The translations under genes and the position numbers were made by a program. 39,708 nt of DNA from assembly GCA_024709365.1 (NCBI GenBank), contig JANJWV010000053.1, positions 1 to 39,708 on the forward strand, given 5' to 3'. The notes under the pieces are model-generated. The model was not told where the DNA came from. It was given only the letters and a program-made list of their open reading frames with translations, and did not search any database. Below are positions 15,454 through 22,154 of this stretch, in pieces (within the stretch, counting starts at the first letter, position 1; the number at the start of each line of letters is the position of its first letter). This stretch comes from Desulfomicrobium sp. Its GTDB lineage: Bacteria > Desulfobacterota > Desulfovibrionia > Desulfovibrionales > Desulfomicrobiaceae.

Positions 15454-16026
15454 TTATCCCGCTGCCCTGAACAGCCCCAGGTTCGCCTCCAGGGCCGCGC
15501 CCTTGAGCAGGTCGTCCATGGCCCGTTCGTAATGCTCTCCCTCCACTCCGGGGATAAGGCCCAGCCTGTTCACGGCCGCGAGCACGGCGACGTTCTGCAT
15601 GCGCGGGTCTTCGATGTCCGGGCGCGTCACGGCATGAACCGTGATGGAGCGGGTGGCCGCCGCCCGGGCGACATCCTCCGCGCTCACCTCGGCGGCCGTT
15701 CCGAGGCGCACGGGCAGGGGCTGCAGCACGGTGTCGTAGTAGGCCAGGGTCCCGCCGTCGCGCAGGGCCGTCTGCATGGCGCGCAAGGCCTCGTGGCGCT
15801 CCAGCCCGATGGCCAGGTCCGCCTCCCCGGCGGGGATGAGGGGGCTGTGGGCCGATGCGCCCAGGCGGATCTGGGACACGACGATGCCGCCTCGCTGGGC
15901 CAGCCCGTGGGTGTCGACGGCCTTGGCCGCGTGGCCGGCGTGGTCCGCGGCGCGCAGGATGATCTCGCTCAAGAGGCCGATGCCCTGCCCGCCGACGCCG
16001 CTAAGATAGATATTGAATATGTTCAT
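15454..16026 (-). CDS. iorB: Indolepyruvate:ferredoxin oxidoreductase, beta subunit
   Basis: Gamma-domain subunit of 190 residues that pairs with IorA to oxidatively decarboxylate aryl-pyruvates (from Trp, Phe, Tyr transamination) to acyl-CoA, reducing ferredoxin. The N terminus MNIFNIYLSGVGGQGIGLLSEIIL carries the GVGGQG motif of 2-oxoacid:acceptor oxidoreductase gamma domains, and the following THGLAQRGGIVVSQIRLG is characteristic of IorB. A good AAGGAG site precedes ATG 16026, 10 bases after the iorA stop, so it is the second gene of the operon. It appears intact although iorA carries an in-frame stop. Confidence 0.92.
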   Translation of the reverse strand: MNIFNIYLSGVGGQGIGLLSEIILRAADHAGHAAKAVDTHGLAQRGGIVVSQIRLGASAHSPLIPAGEADLAIGLERHEALRAMQTALRDGGTLAYYDTVLQPLPVRLGTAAEVSAEDVARAAATRSITVHAVTRPDIEDPRMQNVAVLAAVNRLGLIPGVEGEHYERAMDDLLKGAALEANLGLFRAAG

Positions 16027-16036
16027 GAGGCGCTCC

Positions 16037-17899
16037 TTACCGGATGATGGCCTTGCTGGGACAGGTCTGCATGCACGAGCCGTCGCCGATGCACAGCTCC
16101 GGGTTCACGGTCACGCTGCCGTCTGCGGCGAGGGTGAAGCTCGGGCAGGCGAAGTCCTGCACGCAGACGTGGGCGCGGGTGCAGAGATCCTGGTCGATGG
16201 TCACGTGACGGTCCACGTAGCCGCTCTTGCGGCGCTGGTTGCGGGTGAAGAGCAGCATGCACGGGTGGCGGGCGATGACCACGCTGAAGGCGTCCACGTC
16301 CAGGGCCTGGCGCATGAGGTCCGGCAGCTCGGCCTGCTTGTAGGTGTCGGTCTCGAAGATGTGCCTGACCCCGAGCCCTTCGAGGAGCTGCCGCACCGGG
16401 ATGGCGTCGGTCGGCTCGTTGAAGTTGCGCCCGGACCCGGCGTGGTCCTGGTGTCCGGTCATGGCCGTGGTGCCGTTCTCCATGAGCACCAGGGTCAGGT
16501 TGTGCCGGTTGAAGAGCGCGTTGACGATGCCCGGCAGCCCGGCGTGGTAGAAGGTCGAGTCGCCCAGGAAGGCCACGACCTTGCGCGTATCGTTGAGGAG
16601 GGTCAGGCCCGCACCCATGCTCGTGGACGCGCCCATGCACAGGAGCACTTCCCCCATGCGGTACGGCTCCATGAAGCCCAGGGTGTGGCAGCCGATGTCG
16701 GCCACGGTGATGGTCCCTTCGGGCAGGGCCTTCTTTATGGCGTGAAAGGCGCTGCGATGGCCGCAGCCGGGGCACATCTGGGCCGGACGTGCGGGCACGG
16801 GAGCCAGGGGCTCGACCGCCGCCTTGCGGGCCGGGACCATGTCGGGCCAGGTGCGGTGCAGGATGTCCCGGACCTTGTCCGCCGTGTACTCGCCGACCCA
16901 GTCCTCGTCGTCGGCCTTGCCGATGACCCGGGCGGCCAGGCCCCGGTCATAGGCCAGGGCCTTGATGTCCTTCTCCAGGGTGTCGTCCAGTTCCTCCAGC
17001 ACCTTCACCTCGGCGTGGCTCTGCAGAAAGTCGGCGATGACGCGCGAGGGCATGGGGTACGGCATGGCCAGCTTGAGCACATCGGGCCTGTCAGGCAGCC
17101 CTTCCAGGGCGTCGGCCACGGACAGGGCGACCATGCCCGAAAGGATGACGCCGCGCGGGCTCCCGTGGCCCGTGACCGTGTGCAGACCGCGCTCGTCCAC
17201 CCAGCGCTCGGCCTTGCGGAGGTTCTCCAGGGCCGTGCGCTTCTTGGGGAAGACGGCAGCCGTGAGGGGGATGTACGGGCCGTTGGCCGCATCGAAGCGC
17301 GGGTTGTTCTCGAAGGTTTGCGGCTCCCAACCGGCGAAGGCGACCTTTTCCTTGGCGTGGCAGACGTGGGTCGTCAGGCGCAGGATGACCGGGCGGCACA
17401 GGCTGCGGGCCAGCGCCGCCGCCTCCTTGTAGTAGGCGTAGACCTCGGCCGGGTTGGCAGGCTCCAGCAGCGGCGTGTAGCTCATGGCCGCGTAGTGCCG
17501 GTTGTCCTGCTCGTTCTGGGAGGAGTTGGCGCCTGGGTCGTCGCCCAGGACCACGACCATGCCGCCGATGAGGTTCAGGAGCGACAGCTGCACGAAGGCG
17601 TCCGCAGCCACGTTCAGGCCCACGCTCTTGAAGAAGACCGTCGACAGGTACCCGTTCAGGGACGCACCCAGGGCGACCTCCGTGGCCACCTGCTCGTTGG
17701 TCTAGAATTCGAAATAACACGGCCGCTTCTCCGGCGCGATGGACTGAATCGCCGTGGCGATCTCCGGCGTCGGGGAACCGGGATAGGACGTGACCACGCG
17801 CGTCCCGGCCTCGACCATGGCCCTTACCAGGGCCGTGTTGCCCATGACGATCTCCGAAAACGGCGTCCGGGTCAGGAGCATTTCACCCATGTACTTCAT
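16037..17899 (-). pseudogene. iorA: Indolepyruvate:ferredoxin oxidoreductase, alpha subunit, with in-frame amber codon
   Basis: The reading frame from ATG 17899 (after GAGGAAG) gives 65 residues ending PCYFEF, hits TAG at 17702-17704, then continues in the same frame as TNEQVATEVALGASLNG for about 550 residues. The two parts are one IorA: N-terminal pyrimidine-binding domain (GNTALVRAMVEAG, SYPGSPTPEI), a central domain, then the TPP-binding domain (CPGCGHRSAF, GDSTFYHAG, ENGTTAMTG) and a C-terminal ferredoxin-like tail. Nothing is shifted; a single base change in a Ser codon (TCG to TAG) would explain it. A shorter product could start at GTG 17689 but would lack the SYPGSP region. The tail's cysteines are also unusual: CTRAHVCVQDFACP and CIGDGSCMQTCP each lack the second Cys of a CxxCxxC motif. 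Confidence 0.85.
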
Positions 17900-18007
17900 A
17901 TGCTTCCTCGCTGTAGGGAGGTTTCGGACCCCCGAAAACGGAAATCCTGACATTCATACCGCCTACCCCACACGGAAGCGGGAGGCAATGACCATACGGA
18001 GGAAACC

Positions 18008-18522: not shown

Positions 18523-18580
18523 TAATTGGACGGACATAAACTGACAATTGGACGAGATAAAATTTGCAATTGGACGGACG
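18523..18580 (+). repeat. Three direct repeats of AATTGGACG at exact 22-bp spacing
   Basis: AATTGGACGGA at 18524, AATTGGACGAG at 18546 and AATTGGACGGA at 18568 recur at an exact 22-base period, two DNA turns, ending 12 bases before the ATPase start at 18592. Upstream (18440-18522) the DNA turns markedly AT-rich. The repeats could be a regulator's iterated binding site or the end of an old mobile element; no transposase is present. Confidence 0.8.
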
Positions 18581-18591
18581 ACAATCTACAT

Positions 18592-19857
18592 ATGGACGCC
18601 ATGGAATCGACAGACCTCTATCCGCGCTTCATCCGCCCCCGCCTGCTGGAGGCACTCGCCGATGCTCCGGTCGTGCTGATCCATGGCCCCCGTCAGTGCG
18701 GCAAGACGACGCTGGCCCGACAGGCGGGCGAGGATGCAAGCTTTGCCTATCTGAGCTTTGACGACGACGTGCAACGCGCCGCCGCGCAGAGCGATCCTGT
18801 GGGCTATGTCGCCGATCTTCCGGAGCGGGTGATCCTGGACGAAATACAGCGCGTGCCGGAACTGTTCACGGCGCTGAAGGCGGCCGTGGACGCCCGGCGG
18901 GAGGCCGGCCGTTTCATCCTGACCGGCTCGGCCAACGTGCTCCTGATTCCCCGCCTGGCGGATTCGCTGGCCGGAAGGATGGAGATACTCAGACTCCACC
19001 CCCTGGCCCAGGCGGAACTCTCCGGGAAGAACCCGGAACTCCTGCCCGCGTTGCTGCAAGGACGCTTCAAGGCAGGCGTCACAGGCAGGCGTCTGGGCCG
19101 GGATCTGGCCGAACGCGTGGCCGCCGGAGGCTATCCGCCCGCCTTGAAGCGAGCTGCGGCCAAACGCAGAGCCGTCTGGTACCGCGATTACGCCGAAACC
19201 CTGGTCCAGCGGGACATCCGCGATCTGGCCCGCATCAGCCAAATGGATGCCCTGCCCCGCCTGCTGACACTGGCGGCCGGGCAGACGGCCCGTCTGCTGA
19301 ACGTGTCGGACCTGGCCACGCCCTTCCAGGTCAGCCGCAGCACGATCCGCGAATACGTGACCTTGCTGTCGCGGATTTTCCTCCTGGAAGAACTGCCTCC
19401 CTGGCACAGCAACCGTCTCAGCCGGCTCATCAAGACCCCAAAGCTGCACCTCGGAGACACGGGCCTGGCCTGCGCCCTGCTCGGCCTGGACGCCGACGCC
19501 CTCTGGAACGACCGCGCCGTGTTCGGCCAGATTCTGGAAACCTTCGTTTATCAGGAACTGAGGCGCCAGTCAGGCTGGCTGGATGACGCGGTTTCGTTCA
19601 GCCATTTCCGGGACAAGGACAAGACGGAAGTGGATATCGTGCTGGAATGCGGAGGACGGATCGCGGGGGTCGAGGTGAAGGCGTCATCGACCGTGACCGC
19701 CAACGATTTCAAGGGGCTGCGCAAACTCCAACAGGCCGGGGAAAACCGTTTTGCAGCCGGGATCGTGATGTACGACGGCGAGGCCGTCGTTCCCTTCGGG
19801 AATCAGCTGTATGCCGTGCCGATATGTAGCCTGTGGGAGGCTGCGAGACCATCATAG
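18592..19857 (+). CDS. AAA ATPase with C-terminal DUF4143 (archaeal-ATPase-like family), first copy
   Basis: Cytoplasmic protein of 421 residues. Walker A is GPRQCGKTT (32-40) and Walker B is RVILDEIQR (Asp93-Glu94), with sensor ILTGSANVLL. A winged-helix-like segment (LNVSDLATPFQVSRSTIREYVTLL) links to a C-terminal DUF4143 domain with the nuclease-like TEVDIVLECGGRIAGVEVKAS (D...ExK). Such ATPases are abundant, mobile and of uncertain role; some occur with toxin-like or defence genes. ATG 18592 or 18601 is likely; a TTG at 18526 would run the coding sequence through the repeats and was rejected. The next gene is the AT-rich PIN-like gene on the same strand, 74 bases on. The gene itself is GC-rich like the chromosome. 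Confidence 0.88.
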   Translation: MDAMESTDLYPRFIRPRLLEALADAPVVLIHGPRQCGKTTLARQAGEDASFAYLSFDDDVQRAAAQSDPVGYVADLPERVILDEIQRVPELFTALKAAVDARREAGRFILTGSANVLLIPRLADSLAGRMEILRLHPLAQAELSGKNPELLPALLQGRFKAGVTGRRLGRDLAERVAAGGYPPALKRAAAKRRAVWYRDYAETLVQRDIRDLARISQMDALPRLLTLAAGQTARLLNVSDLATPFQVSRSTIREYVTLLSRIFLLEELPPWHSNRLSRLIKTPKLHLGDTGLACALLGLDADALWNDRAVFGQILETFVYQELRRQSGWLDDAVSFSHFRDKDKTEVDIVLECGGRIAGVEVKASSTVTANDFKGLRKLQQAGENRFAAGIVMYDGEAVVPFGNQLYAVPICSLWEAARPS

Positions 19858-19931: not shown

Positions 19932-20957
19932 ATGACGCCTTCGATTAAGATAAACAAATCACCGATCCCAATCTTATGGATCGATACATCCATTATTCTT
20001 AATATAACATTGTTACGCCTTGGAAGAAAACTTGATTCTATCCAAAAAATACGAATTGAAAATTTATATAAAGCAATTAAGAAAGCTACCAGTGAAGGAA
20101 AGTTAATCTGCCCACTAGCGGATCAAGACGAAGAAATCTGGATTGAAAGGAAGGAATGTCTTAAAACCATCCATGAATTATCCCTTGGAATCAGCACAGA
20201 TTCGACACTGGCTGTGCAAGAAAAACTATTTGAACTTTTTGCTGAATCCTATATCACCCAAAAAAAACTTATTGAAATAGATTATTCCATTTTATTTCAT
20301 AATGACATCGTACAACAAGCCAAGCAAGTATTATCTAGCCCGTTCTATATAACGACAAATCCTCCACTCGTCGGAGGACCAGAAAAGACTAAATCCAGAA
20401 AAGAAAAAATGCTCAAATATCTCAACAAAATAAGAGAAGAAAACGTCGCCAATAAAGTTTCGTTTGAAACACAAAAAGAGGCTGAGTTCATGGCTGAATT
20501 TAATATCATCAAAACTATCATCACTGCCCCTCAAACATTTGCCGATTTGGAACTGGATGCACAAGATTACTTTTGGAACTATATAAATGCCATTGAAAAA
20601 TTGTCATCCTGGCGTGATATTGTTTTGAAGCATGACAAAAGTGACACATCAATTCTCAATTTCTACACGTCGAGCTATTATCGCCAGATACCAAACATAA
20701 AAATTCGCGTTGAGTTCTTCTCAAAGCTAATGACTGATAAACAACCAATCCGTTCAGGAGATATGAAAGATGTTGAACACATTTCCTCAATGCTGCCTTT
20801 CGTTGATATCCTTATTACTGACAAGCAACGCAAAGCTCAGCTTCACAAATTAAAATTTAACGAAGAGTATAAAACAAAAATTTTCTATGTTGGTGACTCC
20901 GAAAAAATCGAGGAGTTCTTTGGTTCACTGCAAAATATAAAACACTACAATTTATAA
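19932..20957 (+). CDS. Probable PIN-like domain protein, strongly AT-rich
   Basis: Protein of 341 residues of unknown function. I see PIN-like hallmarks: an N-terminal beta strand ending in WIDTSIIL (Asp18), an acidic cluster PLADQDEEIW (64-68), and a C-terminal GDMKDVEHISSMLPFVDILITD with Asp280, Asp292 and Asp297, like the DxxH...TxD core of PIN nucleases. Between them lies a long helical insert. If the fold is right it would be a metal-dependent RNase or DNase. The gene is far more AT-rich than its neighbours, with Lys/Ile/Asn-rich codons, which points to recent transfer. AGAGGA lies 7 bases before the ATG. It is sandwiched between two DUF4143 ATPases and is convergent with the second. Confidence 0.62.
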   Translation: MTPSIKINKSPIPILWIDTSIILNITLLRLGRKLDSIQKIRIENLYKAIKKATSEGKLICPLADQDEEIWIERKECLKTIHELSLGISTDSTLAVQEKLFELFAESYITQKKLIEIDYSILFHNDIVQQAKQVLSSPFYITTNPPLVGGPEKTKSRKEKMLKYLNKIREENVANKVSFETQKEAEFMAEFNIIKTIITAPQTFADLELDAQDYFWNYINAIEKLSSWRDIVLKHDKSDTSILNFYTSSYYRQIPNIKIRVEFFSKLMTDKQPIRSGDMKDVEHISSMLPFVDILITDKQRKAQLHKLKFNEEYKTKIFYVGDSEKIEEFFGSLQNIKHYNL

Positions 20958-20975: not shown

Positions 20976-22154
20976 TCAACTCGCCCACCGCCCTGCCGGA
21001 ACACTGAAAAACTCCTCCAGTGGAATCCCCGGCCCGCCGACCATGAGCGTTTTCGCTTCCGGGTATTTGGCCCGGAACCGCTCAAGTCCTTTTGCATCCC
21101 CTGTCCCGCCGCTCTTCACCTCAATGGCCCAGATGTCCTTGCCCCGCTCGACGACGAAATCGACTTCGTATTTGCCGTCGCGCCAGTAAGTCACCCCGTA
21201 CTCCATGGAGCCGAGGCCGTTGCACAGGTGCGCGCCTACGGCGTTTTCGACCAGGCGGCCCCACCATACCGGGTCCGAGGCGGCCTGCTCTAAGCTGCGC
21301 AGGCCCAGGGAGCTTACCAGGGCGTTGTTCCAGAGCACCAGCTTGGGGCTGCTGCCGCGCTTGCGCTGCGTGCCACGGGAAAAGAGTTCGAGTCCGCTGA
21401 GCAGGAAGGCCCCTTCCAGCAGGCGCAGGTAGTGGGCCAGGGTTGTGGTGTTGCCGGCGTCCTGAAGCTGGCCCAGCATCTTTGTGTAGGAGACGATCTG
21501 GGCCGGGAGGGTAGCGGCCAGGGCAAAGAGATGGCGCAGCAGCACGGGCTTGCCGACCCTGGCCATCTGGTAGACGTCACGGGCCAGGACGGTCTCGATG
21601 AGGGAATCGACTATATAGCGCTTCCACAGACTTTCATCGTGGACAAAAGCCGCGCCCCCCGGATAGCCCCCGAAAAAAATCCACTGCTCCAGGGTCCAGC
21701 CGAAGGCCTCCCGGCACTCGGCGAAGCTCCAATGCGGGCAGCGGTGCAGGAGAAAGCGCCCGGCCAGGCTTTCCGTCAGCCCGTCCTGCATGAGCAGGGC
21801 CGAGGAGCCAAGCAGCAGCACACGAATATCCTTGGCAAAATCCCGGCCATCCCACAGCAGCTTGACGCTTTCGCTCCAGCCCGAAACCTTCTGCACCTCA
21901 TCGAGCACCAACAGCACCGGACCGTCAGAGGCCCGCATCAGGGCGCGCCGCCACTGGGTCTCGATCCAAGCGCCGTCCAGAGGCGTTGGGCTGTCGGCCG
22001 TGGCCACGATTGCCGAAAACCCGAGGCTGTCGGCCAACTGCCTGGCAATGGTGGTCTTGCCGACCTGACGCGGCCCGACAAGGACATGCATGACCGGCGA
22101 CGGCGATTGCAGGATCCGTTGCAGGTCGGAAAAGAGGGATCGTTGATATGTCAT
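20976..22154 (-). CDS. AAA ATPase with C-terminal DUF4143 (archaeal-ATPase-like family), second copy
   Basis: Protein of 392 residues of the same broad family as the ATPase at 18592 but only distantly similar in sequence. Walker A is GPRQVGKTT (27-35), Walker B VLLVLDEVQK, sensor VLLLGSSALLM. The C-terminal DUF4143 domain carries YEVDFVVERGKDIWAIEVKSG, again a D...ExK pattern of the restriction-endonuclease-like fold. It reads towards the PIN-like gene and ends 18 bases from its stop, with no hairpin terminator visible. The start at 22154 has only a weak ribosome site (GGACG), and its promoter region holds two palindromes (22198-22234), so it is probably tightly controlled. Two such ATPases around a nuclease-like gene is the notable context; function unknown. 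Confidence 0.88.
   Translation of the reverse strand: MTYQRSLFSDLQRILQSPSPVMHVLVGPRQVGKTTIARQLADSLGFSAIVATADSPTPLDGAWIETQWRRALMRASDGPVLLVLDEVQKVSGWSESVKLLWDGRDFAKDIRVLLLGSSALLMQDGLTESLAGRFLLHRCPHWSFAECREAFGWTLEQWIFFGGYPGGAAFVHDESLWKRYIVDSLIETVLARDVYQMARVGKPVLLRHLFALAATLPAQIVSYTKMLGQLQDAGNTTTLAHYLRLLEGAFLLSGLELFSRGTQRKRGSSPKLVLWNNALVSSLGLRSLEQAASDPVWWGRLVENAVGAHLCNGLGSMEYGVTYWRDGKYEVDFVVERGKDIWAIEVKSGGTGDAKGLERFRAKYPEAKTLMVGGPGIPLEEFFSVPAGRWAS

Follow-up and report, generated by a model that had tools for sequence, protein, structure and literature searches.

IorA is recognised by a thiamine diphosphate (TPP)-binding part and a C-terminal 4Fe-4S domain, and is defined operationally by the TIGR03336 profile, which has a curated cut-off of 650.9 bits. 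Activation of thiamine diphosphate in the superfamily falls to the glutamate of a MEDEI-type motif. (The errors of sequencing instruments may also be pertinent to the gene described here. In four-colour Illumina chemistry, A and C share one laser channel and G and T another. Confusion of A with C and of G with T, in either direction, is prominent among Illumina substitution errors (PMC4381044).)

The window analyzed here is one whole contig of 39,708 bases from a 3.65 Mb Desulfomicrobium draft genome in 239 contigs. It carries an IorA/IorB-like gene pair with one interruption:

16037..17899, minus strand: iorA-like gene with POR_N, TPP_enzyme_C and Fer4 domains; its sole interruption is a TAG codon
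17702..17704, minus strand: the in-frame TAG, codon 66 counted from ATG 17899 and codon 84 counted from 17953
15454..16026, minus strand: intact iorB-like gene with a POR domain; it follows iorA at a distance of 10 bases

The iorA-like gene starts at ATG 17899, with GAGGA upstream, and its minus-strand frame is closed by a TAA at 16037. An alternative in-frame ATG at 17953 is absent from the closest complete relative, which has ATA at that place. Sixty-five codons lie between ATG 17899 and the TAG. The minus-strand reading ...RPCYFEF-TAG-TNEQVATEVALGAS... is confirmed, with the TAG at 17704-17702, and past this codon the iorA frame stays open to 16037 through POR_N, TPP_enzyme_C and Fer4; the preliminary description was thus right in stating that an in-frame amber codon splits the gene. 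When joined across the stop, the frame contains PF01855, PF02775 and PF00037, that is, the TPP-binding part and C-terminal 4Fe-4S domain of IorA, and matches the TIGR03336 profile end to end at 519 bits, below the curated cut-off. (The portion after the stop scores 462.8 bits alone.) With this sub-cut-off score, the gene falls in a divergent IorA-like subfamily of uncertain substrate. Of the earlier identification as iorA, the IorA-like character stands. The predicted function of the pair is probably that of an accessory thiamine-diphosphate 2-keto-acid:ferredoxin oxidoreductase. Residue 9 of iorB (window position ~16000) is Ser before GVGGQG here and Cys in four compared congeners. An intact and distant 833-aa IorA-IorB fusion is encoded elsewhere in the same genome (G000:C86).

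Close orthologues of the iorA-like gene (88-96% identity) are found in five of the 15 other members of the genus that were examined (G013, G008, in which it is partial, G015, G003 and G007). The pair is patchily distributed, being present in 6 of 16 genomes of the genus. IorA sequences of other genera in the order are mostly 33-39% identical; outside the genus, identity reaches 73% with the closest homologue found. The IorA/IorB-like pair belongs to a divergent subfamily, and horizontal transfer may have spread it. (Homologues of 52-73% identity occur in metagenome-assembled genomes and isolates labelled Desulfobacterales, Synergistales, Spirochaetes and others.)

The gene content of the window varies within the genus at another place as well. 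Segment 19858-23511 represents ~3.4 kb of extra DNA relative to G008, in which the corresponding flanks lie ~260 bp apart, and its counterpart is also shorter in G015 and G007. The segment includes:

19932-20957: gene of 341 amino acids with no Pfam match
20976-22154: AAA_14/DUF4143 ATPase gene, ~26% identical to the adjoining DUF4143 ATPase at 18526-19857

The amber codon of iorA takes the place of a serine. Ser is found at this position in all five same-genus orthologues, none of which has an internal stop (TCG being the codon of G013 and G008, and TCA that of G003), and in 107 of 108 aligned homologues, with Cys in the remaining one. A conserved in-frame TAG was sought among the aligned homologues, and none has a stop there. 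The codon of G013 is TCG and there is no indel at the site, which bears out the proposal that one base (TCG to TAG) suffices and that no frameshift is needed. Comparison of the codon in sister strains had been suggested as a check; it favors a sense codon, and no examined relative ends IorA at this place. (TGA codons in G003 and G007 lie upstream of the conserved start and are irrelevant to integrity of the gene.) As to the sequence of the contig at large, the tetranucleotide CTAG is strongly avoided, with 9 sites versus ~131 expected from base composition; one of these nine is made by the amber codon.

The stop is accompanied by two further private transversions, at 17692 and 17718, which the preliminary description missed, its observation being correct with regard to the stop and incomplete with regard to its surroundings. 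These three changes define a short segment:

17692..17718, minus strand: patch of 27 bases holding three nonsynonymous transversions that are private to the window, probable clustered base-call errors

In terms of the plus strand, the changes are T>G at 17692 (K88Q), G>T at 17703 (S84stop) and A>C at 17718 (F79C), so that one companion is 11 bases and the other 15 bases from the stop change, on opposite sides of it; at each of the three positions, all five congeners have another base than the window. K88, which is Gln in the window, is Lys in 109 of 109 aligned homologues; column F79 is occupied by F, Y, L, M or I in homologues and never by the Cys of the window. Outside the patch, no window-private deviation is found at columns that are at least 90% conserved among 85 close homologues. 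(One other listed departure from conserved columns, L568, is common to sister genomes and hence not private.) The clustering of three of the eight private changes within ten codons is, taken alone, modestly improbable (P = about 0.03).

A like patch occurs elsewhere in the assembly, in one case. A comparison with the sister genome G013 covered the window plus 40 other stretches of this genome, picked via shared tRNA genes and other anchors, and amounted to roughly 280 gene models and 109k codons. In that set, iorA and rmlB are the only long and evidently real genes in which a substitution at the first or second codon position has made a stop. The reverse case, a first- or second-position stop in G013 with the frame open here, was not seen in the roughly 280 gene models. 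The second affected gene is:

G000:C234:7992-9056 (L218): rmlB (dTDP-glucose 4,6-dehydratase), with a TAA stop and an altered neighbouring residue in a conserved motif

The motif reads SNNYGP(Y/F)QFPEKL in 14 congeners and SNNYGPVQFP-stop-KL here; the Glu that is lost to the stop is invariant in the 14, and 12 nt separate the T>G change from the G>T change. The broken rmlB is the only close copy in the genome, and 14 other species of the genus have the gene in intact form. Its stop is probably another sequence error. In rpoC a third patch was suspected at first, but the variation there is ordinary: outgroups mostly share the residues of this genome and the region is variable. Of the other stop-gain calls, most are third-position changes (TGG>TGA or TAC>TAG) within ORFs that are short or poorly supported; judged by their pattern, these look like antisense shadow frames (a few calls, e.g. 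in L274 and L285, may be of another kind).

The explanation that we prefer, at a probability of roughly three in four, is that the TAG arose by clustered base-call errors in the 239-contig draft and is not in the DNA of the organism. On this account three bases within the 27-base patch would be wrong; the true gene would encode a normal IorA-like α subunit, and this restored subunit would pair with the intact IorB-like subunit. All five changes over the iorA and rmlB patches are of the A<->C or G<->T kind, which is the ground for taking the patches as base-call or consensus errors; the change of TCG or GAA into a nonsense codon can only be an A/C or G/T exchange, so that the spectrum is informed by the three companion changes only. 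A genome-wide surplus of paired A/C-G/T nonsynonymous changes in low-divergence genes was looked for and not found (9 seen versus 17.8 expected), which implies that patches of the iorA and rmlB type are rare. What follows is mainly a caution: the draft probably holds local base errors through which intact genes (iorA, rmlB) come to resemble pseudogenes.

That a dispensable iorAB-like operon really did acquire a nonsense mutation, very recently, and that IorB is made in the absence of a working IorA, is an unlikely alternative. Such a loss would be tolerated on account of the accessory nature of the cluster and of the intact fused IorA-IorB that is encoded elsewhere. Consistent with this account, a close orthologue exists in just five of the 15 other species examined, the 833-aa fusion is intact, and a single base change is enough. 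On the other hand, it requires that conserved sites were hit three times within 27 bases and nowhere else, and that the only close rmlB independently took two hits as well. In addition, iorA is without general decay. A decaying pseudogene is expected to gather changes along its whole length. With the patch removed, dN/dS of iorA versus its sisters is about 0.12-0.21, in the same range as for intact pairs, and by this measure purifying selection acts on the remainder of the gene. Signs of relaxed selection or further lesions in iorA were not found beyond the one stop, a state in which a very recent lesion would look alike. A local sequence error is more likely than the earlier suggestion of an operon making IorB without full IorA. 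Were the TAG real, an accessory oxidoreductase would recently have been lost, which is nothing out of the ordinary.

Functional recoding would allow a working α subunit to be made in spite of the stop, either by UAG readthrough (with a suppressor or pyrrolysyl tRNA) or by restart at a GTG codon shortly downstream:

17687..17689, minus strand: GTG suggested as a restart codon; it encodes V89, a start here would leave E87 out, and the upstream sequence shows no strong ribosome-binding site

Full conservation of the downstream frame is in keeping with recoding, yet neither route to rescue envisaged in the preliminary description has support, and recoding is very improbable. In the case of readthrough, pylS matches reach ~20 bits versus a cut-off of 178 bits (similarly weak matches arise in genomes such as E. 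coli and represent background), a CUA anticodon is present in none of the 51 tRNAs found in a draft whose tRNA set looks incomplete, and no homologue shares the stop. In the case of restart at GTG 17689, the product would lack E87, the residue that aligns with the Glu of the MEDEI motif of 2-oxoglutarate synthase α (8ys5). That the TAG is real and usefully read through by an unrecognised suppressor, with IorA still made, is equally hard to credit. (tRNA-Ile (GAT) and tRNA-Ala (TGC) are not seen among the 51 tRNA genes, which suggests that the draft lacks rRNA operon regions.)

Cloning or vector contamination, with the adjoining XbaI and EcoRI sites (both within TCTAGAATTC) marking a polylinker join, was worth excluding, as had been advised, but its likelihood is next to nil: the EcoRI site is native, with GAATTC at the same place in G013 (GAATTCTCG), the XbaI site arises solely from the changed base, both flanks are collinear with G013 at ~94% with no indel there, and the 22-mer spanning the stop is found once in the genome.

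Clustered base-call error remains the preferred reading, and it can be set against the described Illumina errors (PMC4381044): all five patch changes conform to the A/C and G/T spectrum, bearing in mind that the platform of this genome may not be Illumina, whereas the difference lies in there being just two patches in roughly 109k codons. The gene itself, compared with IorA as defined by TIGR03336, differs in its sub-cut-off score (519 versus 650.9 bits) and is the same in its full-length profile match, its layout of POR_N, TPP_enzyme_C and 4Fe-4S domains, and its adjoining iorB-like gene.
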